Origin: Aedoeadaptatus coxii
GTDB lineage: Bacteria; Bacillota; Clostridia; Tissierellales; Peptoniphilaceae
Direction of reading: 5' to 3'
Assembly: GCF_001553115.1 (NCBI RefSeq)
Contig: NZ_KQ960171.1
Location: 62,001-126,000, forward strand
Length of the DNA: 64,000 bases
How positions within the stretch are numbered: position 1 is the first letter of the stretch; every line of letters begins with the position of its first letter. This document shows positions 107-5,735 of this stretch, piece by piece. The position numbers were made by a program, and so were the translations under genes. The notes beneath the pieces are model-generated. The model was not told where the DNA came from. It ran no database searches and saw only the letters and a list, made by a program, of their open reading frames with translations.

Positions 107-697
107 TTAGCAGGGCTTGACGACTTTGTATTGAATCATGAGCTCTGCAATGCGATACATATTGGTAATATCGCCGACTTGTAATTTTTCTTTTACTTCG
201 TATTGATTGAGGCAAAGGCCGCAGGAAAGAACTTGTGTACCTTTCTTTTCCAGTTCCTTTAAATCGCCGATAACTTTTTCGTTAAGGGAGGGGAGAAGAA
301 CGCCGGTGTTGTAGAAGATGACGTAGGTCGGTGTAATATCTTGTTCGGTAAGAGCGTAGATAAAGCCTTCCAATAAGTTTTTAGAAAAGGTTTCGTCACC
401 CGTGCCCATTTTGTCGCTGGAAATGGCGACGACGTATTCGCCGCAAAGACCTTCTTCCGCAACGGCGACGCTTTCGCCATCGCCGGTTTTAACGAGGTGA
501 ACCTCGTAATCCGTATTGGAATTGGTTTTAACATCGGCGGAGAAGCCGAGTTGTTTTGCCATTTTAGAAAGATTTTCCGTGGCGATTTTATTATCGACTT
601 TGACGGTAACTTCTTCCAAGTTTTCTTCGCGAATGGCTTTTTTCGTTAAAATAACGGGGCGAGGACATGCGAGCCCCATGGCGTCGATTATTTTCAT
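107..697 (-). CDS. yedF: YedF-like selenium-metabolism protein (TusA-DsrE fusion)
   Basis: The 196-residue protein starts with a TusA/SirA-like domain (residues 1-70) carrying the CPRP motif (Cys11), the sulfur or selenium carrier cysteine of this fold. A DsrE-like domain follows (about 80-190) with a Cys-rich SCGLCLNQ segment near residue 160, and the chain ends in KPC. This arrangement is the YedF family found beside selD in selenium-using bacteria. Its exact role, probably handling activated sulfur/selenium, is not settled. The gene starts 4 bp after the selD stop, with a GAGG ribosome site inside the end of selD, so the two are one operon. It ends at a strong terminator. Confidence 0.85.
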   Translation of the reverse strand: MKIIDAMGLACPRPVILTKKAIREENLEEVTVKVDNKIATENLSKMAKQLGFSADVKTNSNTDYEVHLVKTGDGESVAVAEEGLCGEYVVAISSDKMGTGDETFSKNLLEGFIYALTEQDITPTYVIFYNTGVLLPSLNEKVIGDLKELEKKGTQVLSCGLCLNQYEVKEKLQVGDITNMYRIAELMIQYKVVKPC

Positions 698-701
698 TGT
701 A

Positions 702-1709
702 TTACCTCACATAAATGGATTTTTCGGAAGGTTCGATCATTTCGCCAATGTAGGCGACGTCGATGCCTTTCTTTTTCATTTCGTCGAACATTTTTTTGCC
801 GTCGTCGGGATCCACGCTGATTAAGAGTCCGCCCGATGTTTGGGGATCATATAGCACTTCTTCCAAGGCGAAGTCGTCGATTTCAAAGGCGATCTTGTCG
901 CCGTAGGCGTTGCGATTCCGTTGGCCGCCGGCGGTAAAGAGGAAGTTTTCCGCCGCTTCTTTAGCGCCACTTAAAATATTAAGTTTGTCGGCGTAAATGA
1001 CGGCGCTGGCGCCATCGGTCATTTCGCATAAGTGACCCAATAGCCCGAATCCCGTGACGTCGGTTAAGGCGTGAACATCGTAGTTTTTCAAAACATCGTA
1101 GGGATGTTTGTTCAGGCGACACATGGAGTCCACGGCCGCTTGATAATCTTCTTTACTTACTTCGTCGACGGTGTAGCCGCTCATTAAAAGGGACACGCCG
1201 AGGGGTTTGGTAAGGTAAAGGGCGTCGCCGACTTTCGGCGTATTATTGCGCTTAATATCTTTCAGGTTTAATTTACCGATAACGCTTAAGCCGTATTTGA
1301 TCTTGGGGTCGTGAATGGAGTGGCCGCCGGTTAAGGTGGTCATGGCTTCTTTACAAACCTCGGCGCCGCCTTTTAGAATTTCATCTAAAATGGCTATGTC
1401 TTCTTCCTCGGGGAAGGCGACGATGTTCATGGCGCTAATGGGCTCGGCGCCCATGGCGTAAATATCCGAAAGGGCGTTAGCCGCCGCGATTTTGCCGAAG
1501 GCGTAGGCATCTTCCACCATGGGCGGGAAGAAGTCCAGGGATGTGACGATGGCGATGTCATCGGTAATTTGGATGATGGCGCCGTCTTCGTTGCCTTCGA
1601 AACCTGCGAGAATATCCTCGCGTTTATAAATGGGTAAGTTTCTTAAAATAGTGGATAGGTCGCCTGCGCCGATTTTGGCATTGCAACCTCCACAAACGTC
1701 TAAATGCAT
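702..1709 (-). CDS. selD: Selenide, water dikinase (selenophosphate synthetase)
   Basis: SelD makes selenophosphate, the selenium donor for selenocysteine and selenouridine, from selenide and ATP. The N-terminal CGGCNAKIG motif holds the catalytic Cys and Lys (E. coli Cys17 and Lys20). The catalytic position is Cys, not Sec as in some relatives. Glycine-rich AIRS/PurM-type signatures follow, including TDVTGFGLLGHL in the middle and DPQTSGGLL near the C-terminus. The start is placed at 1709 because GGAGGG lies 5 bp upstream of that ATG. An ATG 21 bp further upstream is in frame but has no ribosome site and lies beside the -10 element. First gene of the selD-yedF operon. Confidence 0.93.
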   Translation of the reverse strand: MHLDVCGGCNAKIGAGDLSTILRNLPIYKREDILAGFEGNEDGAIIQITDDIAIVTSLDFFPPMVEDAYAFGKIAAANALSDIYAMGAEPISAMNIVAFPEEEDIAILDEILKGGAEVCKEAMTTLTGGHSIHDPKIKYGLSVIGKLNLKDIKRNNTPKVGDALYLTKPLGVSLLMSGYTVDEVSKEDYQAAVDSMCRLNKHPYDVLKNYDVHALTDVTGFGLLGHLCEMTDGASAVIYADKLNILSGAKEAAENFLFTAGGQRNRNAYGDKIAFEIDDFALEEVLYDPQTSGGLLISVDPDDGKKMFDEMKKKGIDVAYIGEMIEPSEKSIYVR

Positions 1710-1728
1710 AGTATCCCTCCATGGCTTC

Positions 1729-1737
1729 ATTATAACA
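1729..1737 (-). promoter_or_regulatory. Extended -10 promoter for selD-yedF
   Basis: On the minus strand TGTTATAAT is an extended -10 (TG-N-TATAAT). No convincing -35 is seen at 16-18 bp, which suits an extended -10 promoter. The predicted transcript start is only about 12 bases ahead of the selD start codon, so the leader is very short. The 1738-1818 stretch shows nothing else. Confidence 0.5.
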
Positions 1738-1843: not shown

Positions 1844-3127
1844 TTATAGAGCTTCTAAAGCTTGTTCGATGTCGGCGATAATGTCTTCTTTATCTTCGAT
1901 GCCTACGCTCATGCGAATGAGGTCGGCGCTGACGCCGGCGGCGAGAAGTTCATCGTCGTTCATTTGGCGATGGGTGGTGCTGGCCGGGTGGAGGACACAG
2001 GTGCGGGAATCGGCGACGTGGGTAACGACGGCGGCGAGTTTCAAACTGTCCATGAATTTTGTAGCGGCTTCCCGTCCGCCTTTAATGCCGAAGGAAATGA
2101 CGCCGCAAGATCCGTTGGGGAGGTATTTTTTAGCAAGTTCGTGTTGGCTGTCGTCTTCCAATGCGGAGAAATTAATCCAGGCGATTTTGTCGTGGCCTTT
2201 TAAATACTTGGCGACGGCGAAGGCGTTTTCGAAATGGCGTGGCATTCTAAGGTGAAGGGTTTCGAGACCGAGACCTAAATAGAAGGAGTTTTGCGGCGAG
2301 GGAATGCTTCCCAGATCGCGCATAATCGTCGTGGTCATTTTCGTAATATAGGCGCCTTTACCGAAGGTTTCCGTATAGGTGACGCCGTGATAGGTTTCGT
2401 CGGGTTCGGTCAGCTGGGGATATTTTTCTTTGTGGGCTGTCCAGTCGAAGTTTCCGGAATCGATGACGGCGCCGCCTACGGAGTTGGCGAATCCGTTCAT
2501 GTATTTCGTCGTGGAGTGGGTGACGATATCGGCGCCGTATTCGAAGGGGCGGAGGAATATGGGTGTGGGGAAGGTGTTGTCCACGATAAGGGGTACGCCG
2601 TGGGCATGTGCCGCGTCGGCGAAGGTTTCGATATCTAAAATTTTAAGTGCCGGATTGGCAAGGCTTTCTCCGTAAACCGCCTTGGTGTTCGGGCGGAAGG
2701 CGCGATCCAATTCTTCTCGCGTCGCCGCCGGATCGACGAAGGTGGATTCGATGCCCATATCCTTCATGGTGTGGGCGATAAGATTGTAGCTACCGCCGTA
2801 AATAGCGGAAGAGGCTACGACATGATCGCCGGCTTTTAAAATATTAATGAGTGCGTAGAAATTGGCCGCCTGACCGGACGATGTTAAAATGCCGGCGACG
2901 CCCCCTTCTAAGGCCGTGATCTTCGCCGCCACGGCGTCGTTGGTGGGGTTGGCAAGTCGAGAGTAGAAATAGCCGGATTCCTTCAGGTCGAAGAGATCGC
3001 CCATTTGTTTCGAGGAATCGTATTTAAATGTAGTCGATTGAACGATGGGCACCACGCGAGGTTCGCCGTTTTGGGGATCGTATCCCGCTTGCACACATAA
3101 AGTTCCAAGTCCTTGTTTTGTCATCAT
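1844..3127 (-). CDS. metY: O-acetylhomoserine sulfhydrylase (MetY)
   Basis: PLP enzyme of the Cys/Met metabolism family that converts O-acetylhomoserine plus sulfide (or methanethiol) to homocysteine (or methionine). The PLP lysine is in STTKYMNG (Lys208). Other family marks are the YSRLANPT segment near residue 55, the SSGQAA loop near 84 and VDNTFPTP near 183. The length of 427 matches the OAH sulfhydrylase subgroup, longer than cystathionine synthases. Two adjacent ATGs are possible; the second (3124) has better spacing from GGAGG. It lies 6 bp after brnQ in one operon, behind a T-box leader that appears to sense Met-tRNA, which fits its biosynthetic role. Confidence 0.93.
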   Translation of the reverse strand: MMTKQGLGTLCVQAGYDPQNGEPRVVPIVQSTTFKYDSSKQMGDLFDLKESGYFYSRLANPTNDAVAAKITALEGGVAGILTSSGQAANFYALINILKAGDHVVASSAIYGGSYNLIAHTMKDMGIESTFVDPAATREELDRAFRPNTKAVYGESLANPALKILDIETFADAAHAHGVPLIVDNTFPTPIFLRPFEYGADIVTHSTTKYMNGFANSVGGAVIDSGNFDWTAHKEKYPQLTEPDETYHGVTYTETFGKGAYITKMTTTIMRDLGSIPSPQNSFYLGLGLETLHLRMPRHFENAFAVAKYLKGHDKIAWINFSALEDDSQHELAKKYLPNGSCGVISFGIKGGREAATKFMDSLKLAAVVTHVADSRTCVLHPASTTHRQMNDDELLAAGVSADLIRMSVGIEDKEDIIADIEQALEAL

Positions 3128-3133
3128 ATCCTC

Positions 3134-4453
3134 CTAAAATTCATTATTAACAGTGGAAGGGGCGGTGTTTCTGTTTTGTCCCTTCACAAATTCATAGATT
3201 AAACCGAGTACAAAGCCCGTTATGGCGGGCAAGAGCCAGGCGAAGCCCGCTCCCGAAAGGGGAATGGCATCGACGGCGGCTTGCAAGAGGGGAAGGCCGG
3301 TAAAGGCATTTACAGCTTCCAGCAAGCTGACCATCAGGGTAAAAACCATGGCGACGCGAAAGGCCGGGGCGTGATTTTCCAGGGGTTTGTAGAAGACGCC
3401 CAAGATCATGAGCATAATGACGCTGGGGTAAACCATGAGGTAAATGGGCGTCGCCAAGAAGACGATTTTTTCCACGCCCAAAAGTGTAATGCCCGCGCCG
3501 ATGCAGGAAAATAAAATCGCCGCCTGTTTGTGGGAAAGTTTACCATTGGTAAATTCGTGAAAGAAATTTGCAATGGATGTAATCTGCCCGATGGCCGTGG
3601 TTAAGCAGGCGAGGACGACGGCGATGCTTAAAAGTGCCAGTCCCTTTTCGCCTAAAATGGCGCGCACGATGTTGAGCAAAAGGGCGGCGTGATCGATATC
3701 TGTGGGATACTTGCCGCTTAATTTAGCGCCGAAATATAAGAGTCCGACGTAGATAACGAAGAAGAGGCAGAAAGTAATGACGCCTGCTTTGGCGACGATA
3801 CCGTTTCGTTCCTTATCACTTGCGTAGCCTCTACGCACAATGTCGCCGATAAAGACCGTGCCGATTAAAAAGCTTACGAGCAAATCTCCCGTTTGGTAGC
3901 CGCCTAAGAAGGAATGCAGGAGCACGTTGTTTACTTGGGGTGGGGCTGCTACGGCGTCTATAGGGAAGAGCACGCCTTTGATCACGATGAAAAATAAAAT
4001 CACCACGAGGGCGGGGGTAAGGTAGCGGGCCACTTTATCGACCATGGCGCTCAGATCCAGGGCGAAGTATAGGGCGATTCCGAAATAAAACAGGGCGAAT
4101 ACCGCCATGGGTACTTTCGGAAAAAGCGCCTGAACGCCCAGCTCGTAGGCTACGGCGCCGGTTCTGGGAACGGAAATGTGGCCTGCGAAAAGCATAATTA
4201 AAAGCAGTAAGTATTTGGAAAATTCCGGATGGATATTTTTCGTAAGGGCCTCTACCGAACCTGCCCTCGAAATAACGTAAAGGGCGACGATAGGCATGAG
4301 TACGGCCGAAATCATAAGCCCTATAGCACCTAAACTCCATTCATTTCCCGATACCAGGCCGAGAGCGCCGGGAAAAATTAAATTTCCCGCTCCGAAATAG
4401 GAAGCGAAAAGCGCCAAGCCGATGTAAAGTGTGTCTCGTTTTTTCTGTTTCAT
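3134..4453 (-). CDS. brnQ: BrnQ-family branched-chain amino acid (or methionine) carrier
   Basis: LIVCS-family cation-coupled amino acid carrier of 439 residues with about 12 membrane segments. It opens with the typical GLALFASYFGAGNLIFPG block. The start is set at 4453 because GGAGAAAGAC precedes this ATG; the longer open frame upstream is translated T-box leader and not real protein. It is the first gene of brnQ-metY. The T-box specifier reads AUG, so this carrier may import methionine in addition to, or instead of, Ile/Leu/Val. The family assignment is firm; the substrate is inferred from regulation and operon partner. Confidence 0.88.
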   Translation of the reverse strand: MKQKKRDTLYIGLALFASYFGAGNLIFPGALGLVSGNEWSLGAIGLMISAVLMPIVALYVISRAGSVEALTKNIHPEFSKYLLLLIMLFAGHISVPRTGAVAYELGVQALFPKVPMAVFALFYFGIALYFALDLSAMVDKVARYLTPALVVILFFIVIKGVLFPIDAVAAPPQVNNVLLHSFLGGYQTGDLLVSFLIGTVFIGDIVRRGYASDKERNGIVAKAGVITFCLFFVIYVGLLYFGAKLSGKYPTDIDHAALLLNIVRAILGEKGLALLSIAVVLACLTTAIGQITSIANFFHEFTNGKLSHKQAAILFSCIGAGITLLGVEKIVFLATPIYLMVYPSVIMLMILGVFYKPLENHAPAFRVAMVFTLMVSLLEAVNAFTGLPLLQAAVDAIPLSGAGFAWLLPAITGFVLGLIYEFVKGQNRNTAPSTVNNEF

Positions 4454-4490
4454 GTCTTTCTCCTTTTTTCTTCTGTTATTTGCGAGAAAA

Positions 4491-4752
4491 TAAAAAAAGC
4501 TTCCGCCCCAAAAGGACGAAAGCAAAATGCTCGTGTTACCACCTTTTTTCATTATTTTATCGCTAAAATAACCTTACAGAGTACCATCATACCCGTGACG
4601 CTATAACAGGCGTACCTGTCGCAGCCTAAACCGAAGCTTCGGTGCGAACACTCCGAGGCCATGTTCCAAAACTTCCATGCCGATTTCTCTCACCAAATGA
4701 AATCTCTCTGTAAGCACTTCCCTTTTGTACTCTCCTCTTCAACGTTATGAAT
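4491..4752 (-). promoter_or_regulatory. T-box riboswitch, predicted methionine-specific, upstream of brnQ-metY
   Basis: Read on the minus strand, the leader has a Stem I with the AGAGTA S-turn strand and the GGTGAGA distal segment, then GGAAC-ATG-G where the specifier normally sits (ATG complement at 4660-4662). The T-box core AGGTGGTAACACGAGC lies at 4529-4545. An intrinsic terminator follows (GCTTTCGTCC stem, loop TTTT, then TTTTTTT at about 4492-4525). The bulge TGGT fits a tRNA with discriminator A, as in tRNA-Met. Uncharged tRNA should stabilise the antiterminator and turn on brnQ-metY. T-box identity is near certain. The AUG reading rests on manual placement; no Ile or Val codon occurs at that position. 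Confidence 0.93.
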
Positions 4753-4755
4753 GGA

Positions 4756-4784
4756 ATTATAGGGGAAAGAGCAAAAGGAGTCAA
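4756..4784 (-). promoter_or_regulatory. Sigma-A promoter for the T-box-brnQ-metY transcript
   Basis: Minus strand TTGACT, 17-bp spacer, TATAAT. Transcription would start near 4749, exactly at the beginning of Stem I. Confidence 0.85.
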
Positions 4785-4889: not shown

Positions 4890-5735
4890 TTATTCTATGG
4901 CGCGGAGGATTTTTTTCGTCACGTCGATGCCCGTGGCTCGTTGAAAGCCCAGGTAACTCATATTGCTGTTCACCTCCACGAGGAGAGGGCCATCCTTCGA
5001 TTGGATAAGATCGATGCCCGAAAAGGTAAGGCCCAAGAGGCGGTGAGCTTTTAAGGCCATGGCGGATTCTTCCTCCGTTAGGGAAACGGGGCGCGCCGAT
5101 CCGCCTAAATCGATATTGGCGCGGAAATCTGTCGGATTGCGTCGCTCGATGGCGCCGAGAATCTCGTCGCCGACGACGATGACCCGCTTGTCCACGCCTT
5201 TCGCTTCTTTTACATAGCGCTGAAGGAGATAATCGGCGGAGCCGAAGTTTTCAGCGAGGGTCACGAGCTCGTCCCTATTTTCGGCGAGAAACACCTGCTC
5301 TCCGAAAGAACCTTTCGCCGCCTTCACCACCATAGGGTAGCCGAAGCGTTTTTCGACGTAGCGGAGAAAGTCCTCTTTCGGCGCGGCACTTTTGTAGTGG
5401 AAGGGGCCGGGGATGGTGTCGATCATGGGCACGTGTCCCGCCAAGGCTTCCCATGTAAGAAGTTTGTCGTCTGCGATTTCAATGGATCGAGGCGAGTTAT
5501 AGACGGGCACCTCTTCCGCCAGGGCGCGGGCGAGGCGAATGTCTTTATCGAAAAAAAGGATTTTACTCGGTCGAGGATCCCCTTTTAAATCCACGGCGCG
5601 AAGTTTACCGCCGACATGTTCCAATGCGTAATCGGTGTGGGCTTTGGCCAGCACCTTGCCGCAGGTTTTAGTAAAATCGGCGACCACTTTATGAATGGTA
5701 AAGGAGAAATAACCGTGATAGATAATGTGAATCAT
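4890..5735 (-). CDS. RimK/LysX-like ATP-grasp ligase
   Basis: 281-residue ATP-grasp protein. A pre-ATP-grasp region (about 1-95) is followed by the nucleotide-binding lobe (MVVKAAKGSFGEQV near 135-150, LLQRYVKEAKGVDKRV near 172-188) and the metal-binding end of the fold (SGIDLIQSKDGPLLVEVNSN near 242-262), with the Glu and Asn expected to hold Mg. This matches the RimK alpha-L-glutamate ligase / LysX group, which joins an amino acid to a carboxylate of a protein or peptide. The substrate cannot be told from sequence. Ribosome site GGAGGCAGT precedes the ATG. It is divergent from the chorismate mutase gene with about 20 bp between start codons. Confidence 0.75.
   Translation of the reverse strand: MIHIIYHGYFSFTIHKVVADFTKTCGKVLAKAHTDYALEHVGGKLRAVDLKGDPRPSKILFFDKDIRLARALAEEVPVYNSPRSIEIADDKLLTWEALAGHVPMIDTIPGPFHYKSAAPKEDFLRYVEKRFGYPMVVKAAKGSFGEQVFLAENRDELVTLAENFGSADYLLQRYVKEAKGVDKRVIVVGDEILGAIERRNPTDFRANIDLGGSARPVSLTEEESAMALKAHRLLGLTFSGIDLIQSKDGPLLVEVNSNMSYLGFQRATGIDVTKKILRAIE

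Follow-up and report, generated by a model that had tools for sequence, protein, structure and literature searches.

In the window, by which we mean the whole 64,000-nucleotide stretch of DNA that was analysed, a T-box leader with the specifier codon AUG precedes two genes on the reverse strand, namely brnQ, encoding a carrier of the LIVCS family, and metY. Computation recovers the leader, its codon and the gene order, finds them conserved in relatives, and places the carriers of these loci on a branch of their own. LIVCS carriers tested elsewhere transport leucine, isoleucine and valine (PMC2494555). The best explanation for the present locus, which we consider reasonably probable, is that an attenuating T-box senses tRNA-Met and controls both a methionine-importing branch of BrnQ and the supply of homocysteine by MetY.

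From these features we infer the following course of tRNA binding, read-through, transport and catalysis. Low methionine would lead to uncharged tRNA-Met, whose CAU anticodon would pair with the AUG at 4662-4660 and whose free ACCA end would pair with the UGGU bulge; the antiterminator would then prevail over the terminator and brnQ-metY would be transcribed. BrnQ would import methionine as its main substrate, or as one of its main substrates, and would provide a second route alongside an ABC importer of the metN type that stands behind a sister T-box, while MetY would make homocysteine from an acyl-homoserine.

The leader and the operon

The leader matches the Rfam T-box model RF00230 over its full length (model positions 1-219) at 4751-4509 on the reverse strand, with 108.2 bits against a gathering threshold of 93 and an E-value of 5.8e-23. 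It is preceded by a sigma-70-type promoter, TTGACT-17-TATAAT, at 4784-4756 (11 of 12 consensus bases) and contains, according to sequence and model alignment, the AGUA motif facing the specifier (4731-4728) and the T-box sequence AGGUGGUAACACG (4544-4532), with the UGGU bulge at 4541-4538. An intrinsic terminator recovered by folding and by a terminator scan follows at 4523-4492 (hairpin 4523-4499, then seven T); a model score above the threshold and a terminator behind the T-box sequence are the two features by which membership in RF00230 is judged. The initial annotation had credited the region 4491-4752 with all the parts of a T-box, and this description holds. For bases 4552-4488 the folding energy is -20.5 kcal/mol (z -3.23; none of 200 shuffles was equally good), while bases 4747-4600, comprising stem I and beyond, do not rise above shuffles when folded alone (z -0.57), so that the structural case stands on the covariance model. 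Because the scans returned close to the shuffled numbers of promoter-like sites (6 against 3.6 +/- 1.8) and terminator-like sites (6 against 5.1 +/- 2.0), support for the promoter and the terminator comes entirely from match quality and position.

The first gene, brnQ (4453-3134, 439 aa), was given its start at 4453, behind AAGGAGAAAG; its profile scans were run on a longer open reading frame from 4552, which begins within the leader, and gave 257 bits for TIGR00796 (cut-off 243.4) and 305.7 bits for PF05525 (cut-off 22.3). After a gap of 6 bases, metY (3127-1844, 427 aa) follows on the same strand and belongs to the O-acetylhomoserine/O-acetylserine sulfhydrylase family (TIGR01326, 589 bits, cut-off 495.1). 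A hairpin, GCCC-UUCG-GGGC with a T run, was identified by eye 3' of metY at 1838-1815 and is the probable terminator of the operon; the automated scan called it on the forward strand only. Immediately downstream of the operon lie the selenium-metabolism genes selD and yedF (window 107-1730), and a RimK-family ATP-grasp ligase gene (window 4890-5735) lies upstream of the T-box on the same strand.

The specifier codon

The T-box almost certainly carries a methionine specifier. The Rfam search found 11 T-boxes in this genome, and in the columns that hold AUG (4662-4660) six of eight control leaders read the codon of their own gene, namely UCC for serS, UGG for trpP, GUC for valS, CCC for proS, AAC for asnA and ACC for thrS; each of these codons, like the AUG of brnQ, is followed by a purine. 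The ilvB and ileS leaders are gapped or shifted by one base in the alignment and show their AUC by eye only, and the tyrS leader is truncated, so that no codon is readable. Control genes were named from NCBIfam and Pfam (ileS, truncated by the end of its locus, reaches 595 where the cut-off is 621). The AUG first proposed from the string GGAAC-ATG-G thus lies in the specifier columns of a structure-based alignment, which places no leucine, isoleucine or valine codon at that position of the brnQ leader. A second AUG leader in this genome, with the identical GAAC-AUG-G-CCUC motif, stands before a metN-like gene (L003; best match TIGR02314, 388.8 bits, below the cut-off of 499.7), and the AUG is invariant when the brnQ leader is aligned with seven other AUG leaders, the metN-like one included. 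Between stem I and stem III (alignment columns of about 140-180), the stretch GUUAUAGC...GUAUGAU.GUAC is nearly invariant between brnQ and metN-like leaders.

Reading the specifier one base earlier would give CAU, a histidine codon. CAU does stand directly after GAA in the brnQ leader, and in the serS and trpP leaders the codon follows GAA immediately; however, valS, proS and thrS share the GAA-N-codon-purine spacing of brnQ and read their cognate codons, and both the metN-like gene and metY indicate methionine rather than histidine. This reading is largely contradicted already and we regard it as extremely improbable. The tRNA-Ile whose gene has a CAU anticodon carries lysidine and reads AUA, so that it is not expected to respond to an AUG leader.

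Two qualifications concern the sensed tRNA. The UGGU bulge had been counted in favour of methionine, an argument that falls away because the same UGGU occurs in this genome in the leaders of valS, proS, ilvB and ileS, whose specifiers are for valine, proline and isoleucine. In Staphylococcus aureus, the met leader favours the initiator tRNA and a change of the AUG left in-vitro binding unaltered (PMC3771891), and the specifier alone is therefore no proof of which tRNA is sensed.

Conservation among relatives

BrnQ matches occur in 121 of 130 genomes of the family, with at least 150 matches in total. Every one of the 150 matches listed was inspected; seven are the window gene and its six orthologs, with 57-92% identity and from two genera, and 143 are other BrnQ genes. 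Among the matches listed, all seven orthologous loci have an AUG leader and metY directly downstream. The expectation that orthologous brnQ-metY leaders keep AUG was thus borne out across two genera, as was the proposal that the T-box controls both genes, which lie behind the leader on one strand in the same order in 7/7 loci. A scan of genome contigs returned three loci, each 91-92% identical. A pattern search of 391 genomes of the class was discarded: its pattern was off by one base and left the window itself unmatched, and many of the matches were one recurring GAACATGATCAC string.

T-boxes precede nine of the 143 other family BrnQ genes among the matches listed, and all nine read AUC, for isoleucine (L189, L212, L217, L226, L229, L233, L236, L237 and L240), with GAA-N-codon-A spacing in 9/9. 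They come from three portions of the search: 23 loci, 20 scanned with Rfam and three by motif alone, in none of which a T-box precedes brnQ; 80 upstream regions scanned with Rfam, two of them shortened by contig ends, with one T-box (L189); and 40 regions examined by motif alone, with eight T-boxes. The motif test recovers nine of the 11 T-boxes of this genome, so that some T-boxes may have been missed where it was used alone. No T-box was found before the three BrnQ paralogs of this genome (L112, L118, L162) or, by Rfam scan, before brnQ in 12 loci from the order; at L025 (G063) a T-box faces away from its brnQ, which sits on the opposite strand. One genome with an isoleucine T-box carrier (G026) belongs to the same genus as G055, G524 and G527, whose ortholog is under AUG.

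A divergent carrier branch

The carriers under methionine T-boxes are a divergent LIVCS branch that still passes the profile test. The seven carriers group together in a tree built from 46 rows, separated with support of 93/90 from two sisters (G042, G505), and the seven together with the sisters are set apart at 100/100 on a long branch, a kind of branch that the tool flags. The sisters, at 43-44% identity, show no T-box within the surrounding 1.5 kb. The tree omits the third paralog of this genome (L013 and L014 are the same open reading frame), which is included in the residue comparison.

All seven carriers have Tyr19, Gly189, Gln290 and Tyr338, and all four residues are missing from the nine isoleucine T-box carriers, from 37 other sampled carriers and from six outsiders including E. 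coli BrnQ. Residue 19 is Phe in all 37 sampled and all nine isoleucine T-box carriers (Phe, Ile or Leu in the outsiders), and where the seven have Gly, Gln and Tyr, the 46 carriers and six outsiders have Met or Leu at 189 and Leu at both 290 and 338. A residue test for LIVCS taken from our own comparison, whose definition is unpublished (Met or Leu 189, Leu 290, Leu 338), is accordingly failed by 7/7 members of the branch. The sisters have Tyr19, Gly189 and Gln290 as in the seven, but Phe338. Val101 was dropped as a candidate signature because it lacks specificity. Motifs like these line the substrate site of carriers with the LeuT fold, and the four residues support an altered substrate without naming which. 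An AlphaFold model of the carrier, based on four near-identical rows, reached a mean pLDDT of 33.9, too low for assigning the four residues to a pocket; a sequence search returned no solved LIVCS relative and a scan of viral contigs no relative.

Methionine uptake by BrnQ is likely because the AUG T-box is kept in relatives and the carriers form a distinct branch, and more generally the carrier probably takes up methionine or a close compound. The case is made firmer by the nine isoleucine T-box carriers, which lack the four residues, while the agreement between specifier and residues amounts to about one event, as a single branch is compared with the others. Points against methionine import include the metN-like importer that is present in any case and the sisters, which share three of the residues without a T-box.

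Substrate of the carrier and role of MetY

BrnQ could instead be a branched-chain carrier of broad specificity, with only weak transport of methionine, that has been drafted into the methionine response. LIVCS members tested elsewhere are multi-specific (PMC2494555), and BcaP of Lactococcus, from the APC family, transports branched-chain amino acids and, with low affinity, methionine (PMC7058034). We consider this unlikely, given that the branch deviates at positions on which 52 other carriers are unanimous or nearly so and that the genome already has three further BrnQ paralogs. As methionine is moved, strongly or weakly, under both this explanation and the preferred one, it is highly likely that the carrier transports it to some extent. 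An explanation to which we give still less weight is that BrnQ imports the substrate of MetY, O-acetylhomoserine or another precursor, which MetY converts and MetH finishes. The locus would then be a scavenge-and-convert unit, in which a re-specialised LIVCS carrier takes up an external precursor for conversion to homocysteine by MetY, switched by uncharged tRNA-Met; we regard such a unit as improbable. Its appeal lies in the pathway: homoserine dehydrogenase and a MetH-family gene were found in 8/8 genomes of the genus, a convincing MetX in none of the eight and MetA in one (G007), which has no brnQ-metY operon. MetA is absent from all seven operon genomes, and metY, beside brnQ here, lies within the fetched flank of metA in three of the four MetA genomes (adjoining in G007, G505 and G535). 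Against it, 21 of the 25 genomes tested lack MetA, and its absence from 7/7 operon genomes would thus arise in roughly a quarter of cases (0.24, calculated by hand; not significant); MetX was examined, and found absent, in four of the seven operon genomes; and an unrelated acyltransferase may exist.

The metY gene had been cited as agreeing with a methionine function. The gene does stand downstream in 7/7 loci; the argument is weakened, and the role of MetY made less certain, because profile searches of this genome found neither MetA nor MetX to make the usual substrate, an acyl-homoserine. MetX matches of 17-21 bits in seven of the eight genus genomes were taken as general hydrolases (that of this genome is a hydrolase-like frame of 254 aa); the MetX control was positive in 9/14 genomes and never above the 500-bit cut-off, which is hence unusable. 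Short MetA matches in G001, G004 and G005 were rejected by eye as frames antisense to a response-regulator gene, and a second genome set, chosen by us, has MetA in 3/18 genomes. The MetF-like gene beside the MetH-family gene in this genome scores 248.5 bits against a cut-off of 293.7.

The brnQ-linked MetY proteins are 50-54% identical to metA-linked ones. NG(F/S)AN follows the PLP lysine in the five displayed out of the seven (window, L018, L020, L099 and L100), and GH follows it in MetY of G505 and G007 and in the two solved chains displayed, the best solved chains by sequence being 8sf5 and 7kb0; the substrate preference of the two kinds may differ.

Relation to known systems

Methionine T-boxes are known among staphylococci and Lactobacillales, for instance in Staphylococcus (met leader, PMC3771891) and Lactococcus (met operon, PMC7058034). 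As here, these two combine a terminator and antiterminator with methionine genes downstream; in the descriptions cited they govern biosynthetic or ABC-importer operons, whereas the present one precedes a LIVCS carrier and metY in the Peptoniphilus family. LIVCS carriers behind T-boxes are likewise known: Table 1 of Wels et al. 2008 (PMC2494555), covering 14 species, places them under Ile, Leu, Thr and Val, and our nine AUC leaders are of that known kind. The methionine row of this table holds ABC systems only, so that within those 14 species it lacks the methionine T-box on a LIVCS carrier that was found here. In Clostridioides difficile, a metY-metA operon with the same MetY family and methionine-related control is under SAM-I (PMC11477304); its metY has metA as neighbour, a place taken here by brnQ, with metA not found. 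The text of PMC8140960 used here names methionine exporters and one importer, none of them LIVCS. No report pairing a methionine T-box with a LIVCS carrier appeared among the literature matches listed, although TBDB may list the combination, and a literature search for brnQ, metY and methionine together returned no paper.

This branch thus probably needs a label other than the branched-chain one that its carrier family bears, and the four residues are candidates for a substrate test. One bacterial family offers a natural contrast of seven carriers under methionine and nine under isoleucine T-boxes, among the matches listed. The locus also exposes a gap in the methionine pathway, MetY without MetA or MetX. 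Elsewhere in this genome (L082, 1414-3458), a short MetE-like protein (388 aa, PF01717) adjoins a substrate-binding-like protein of the Rv1680 family.
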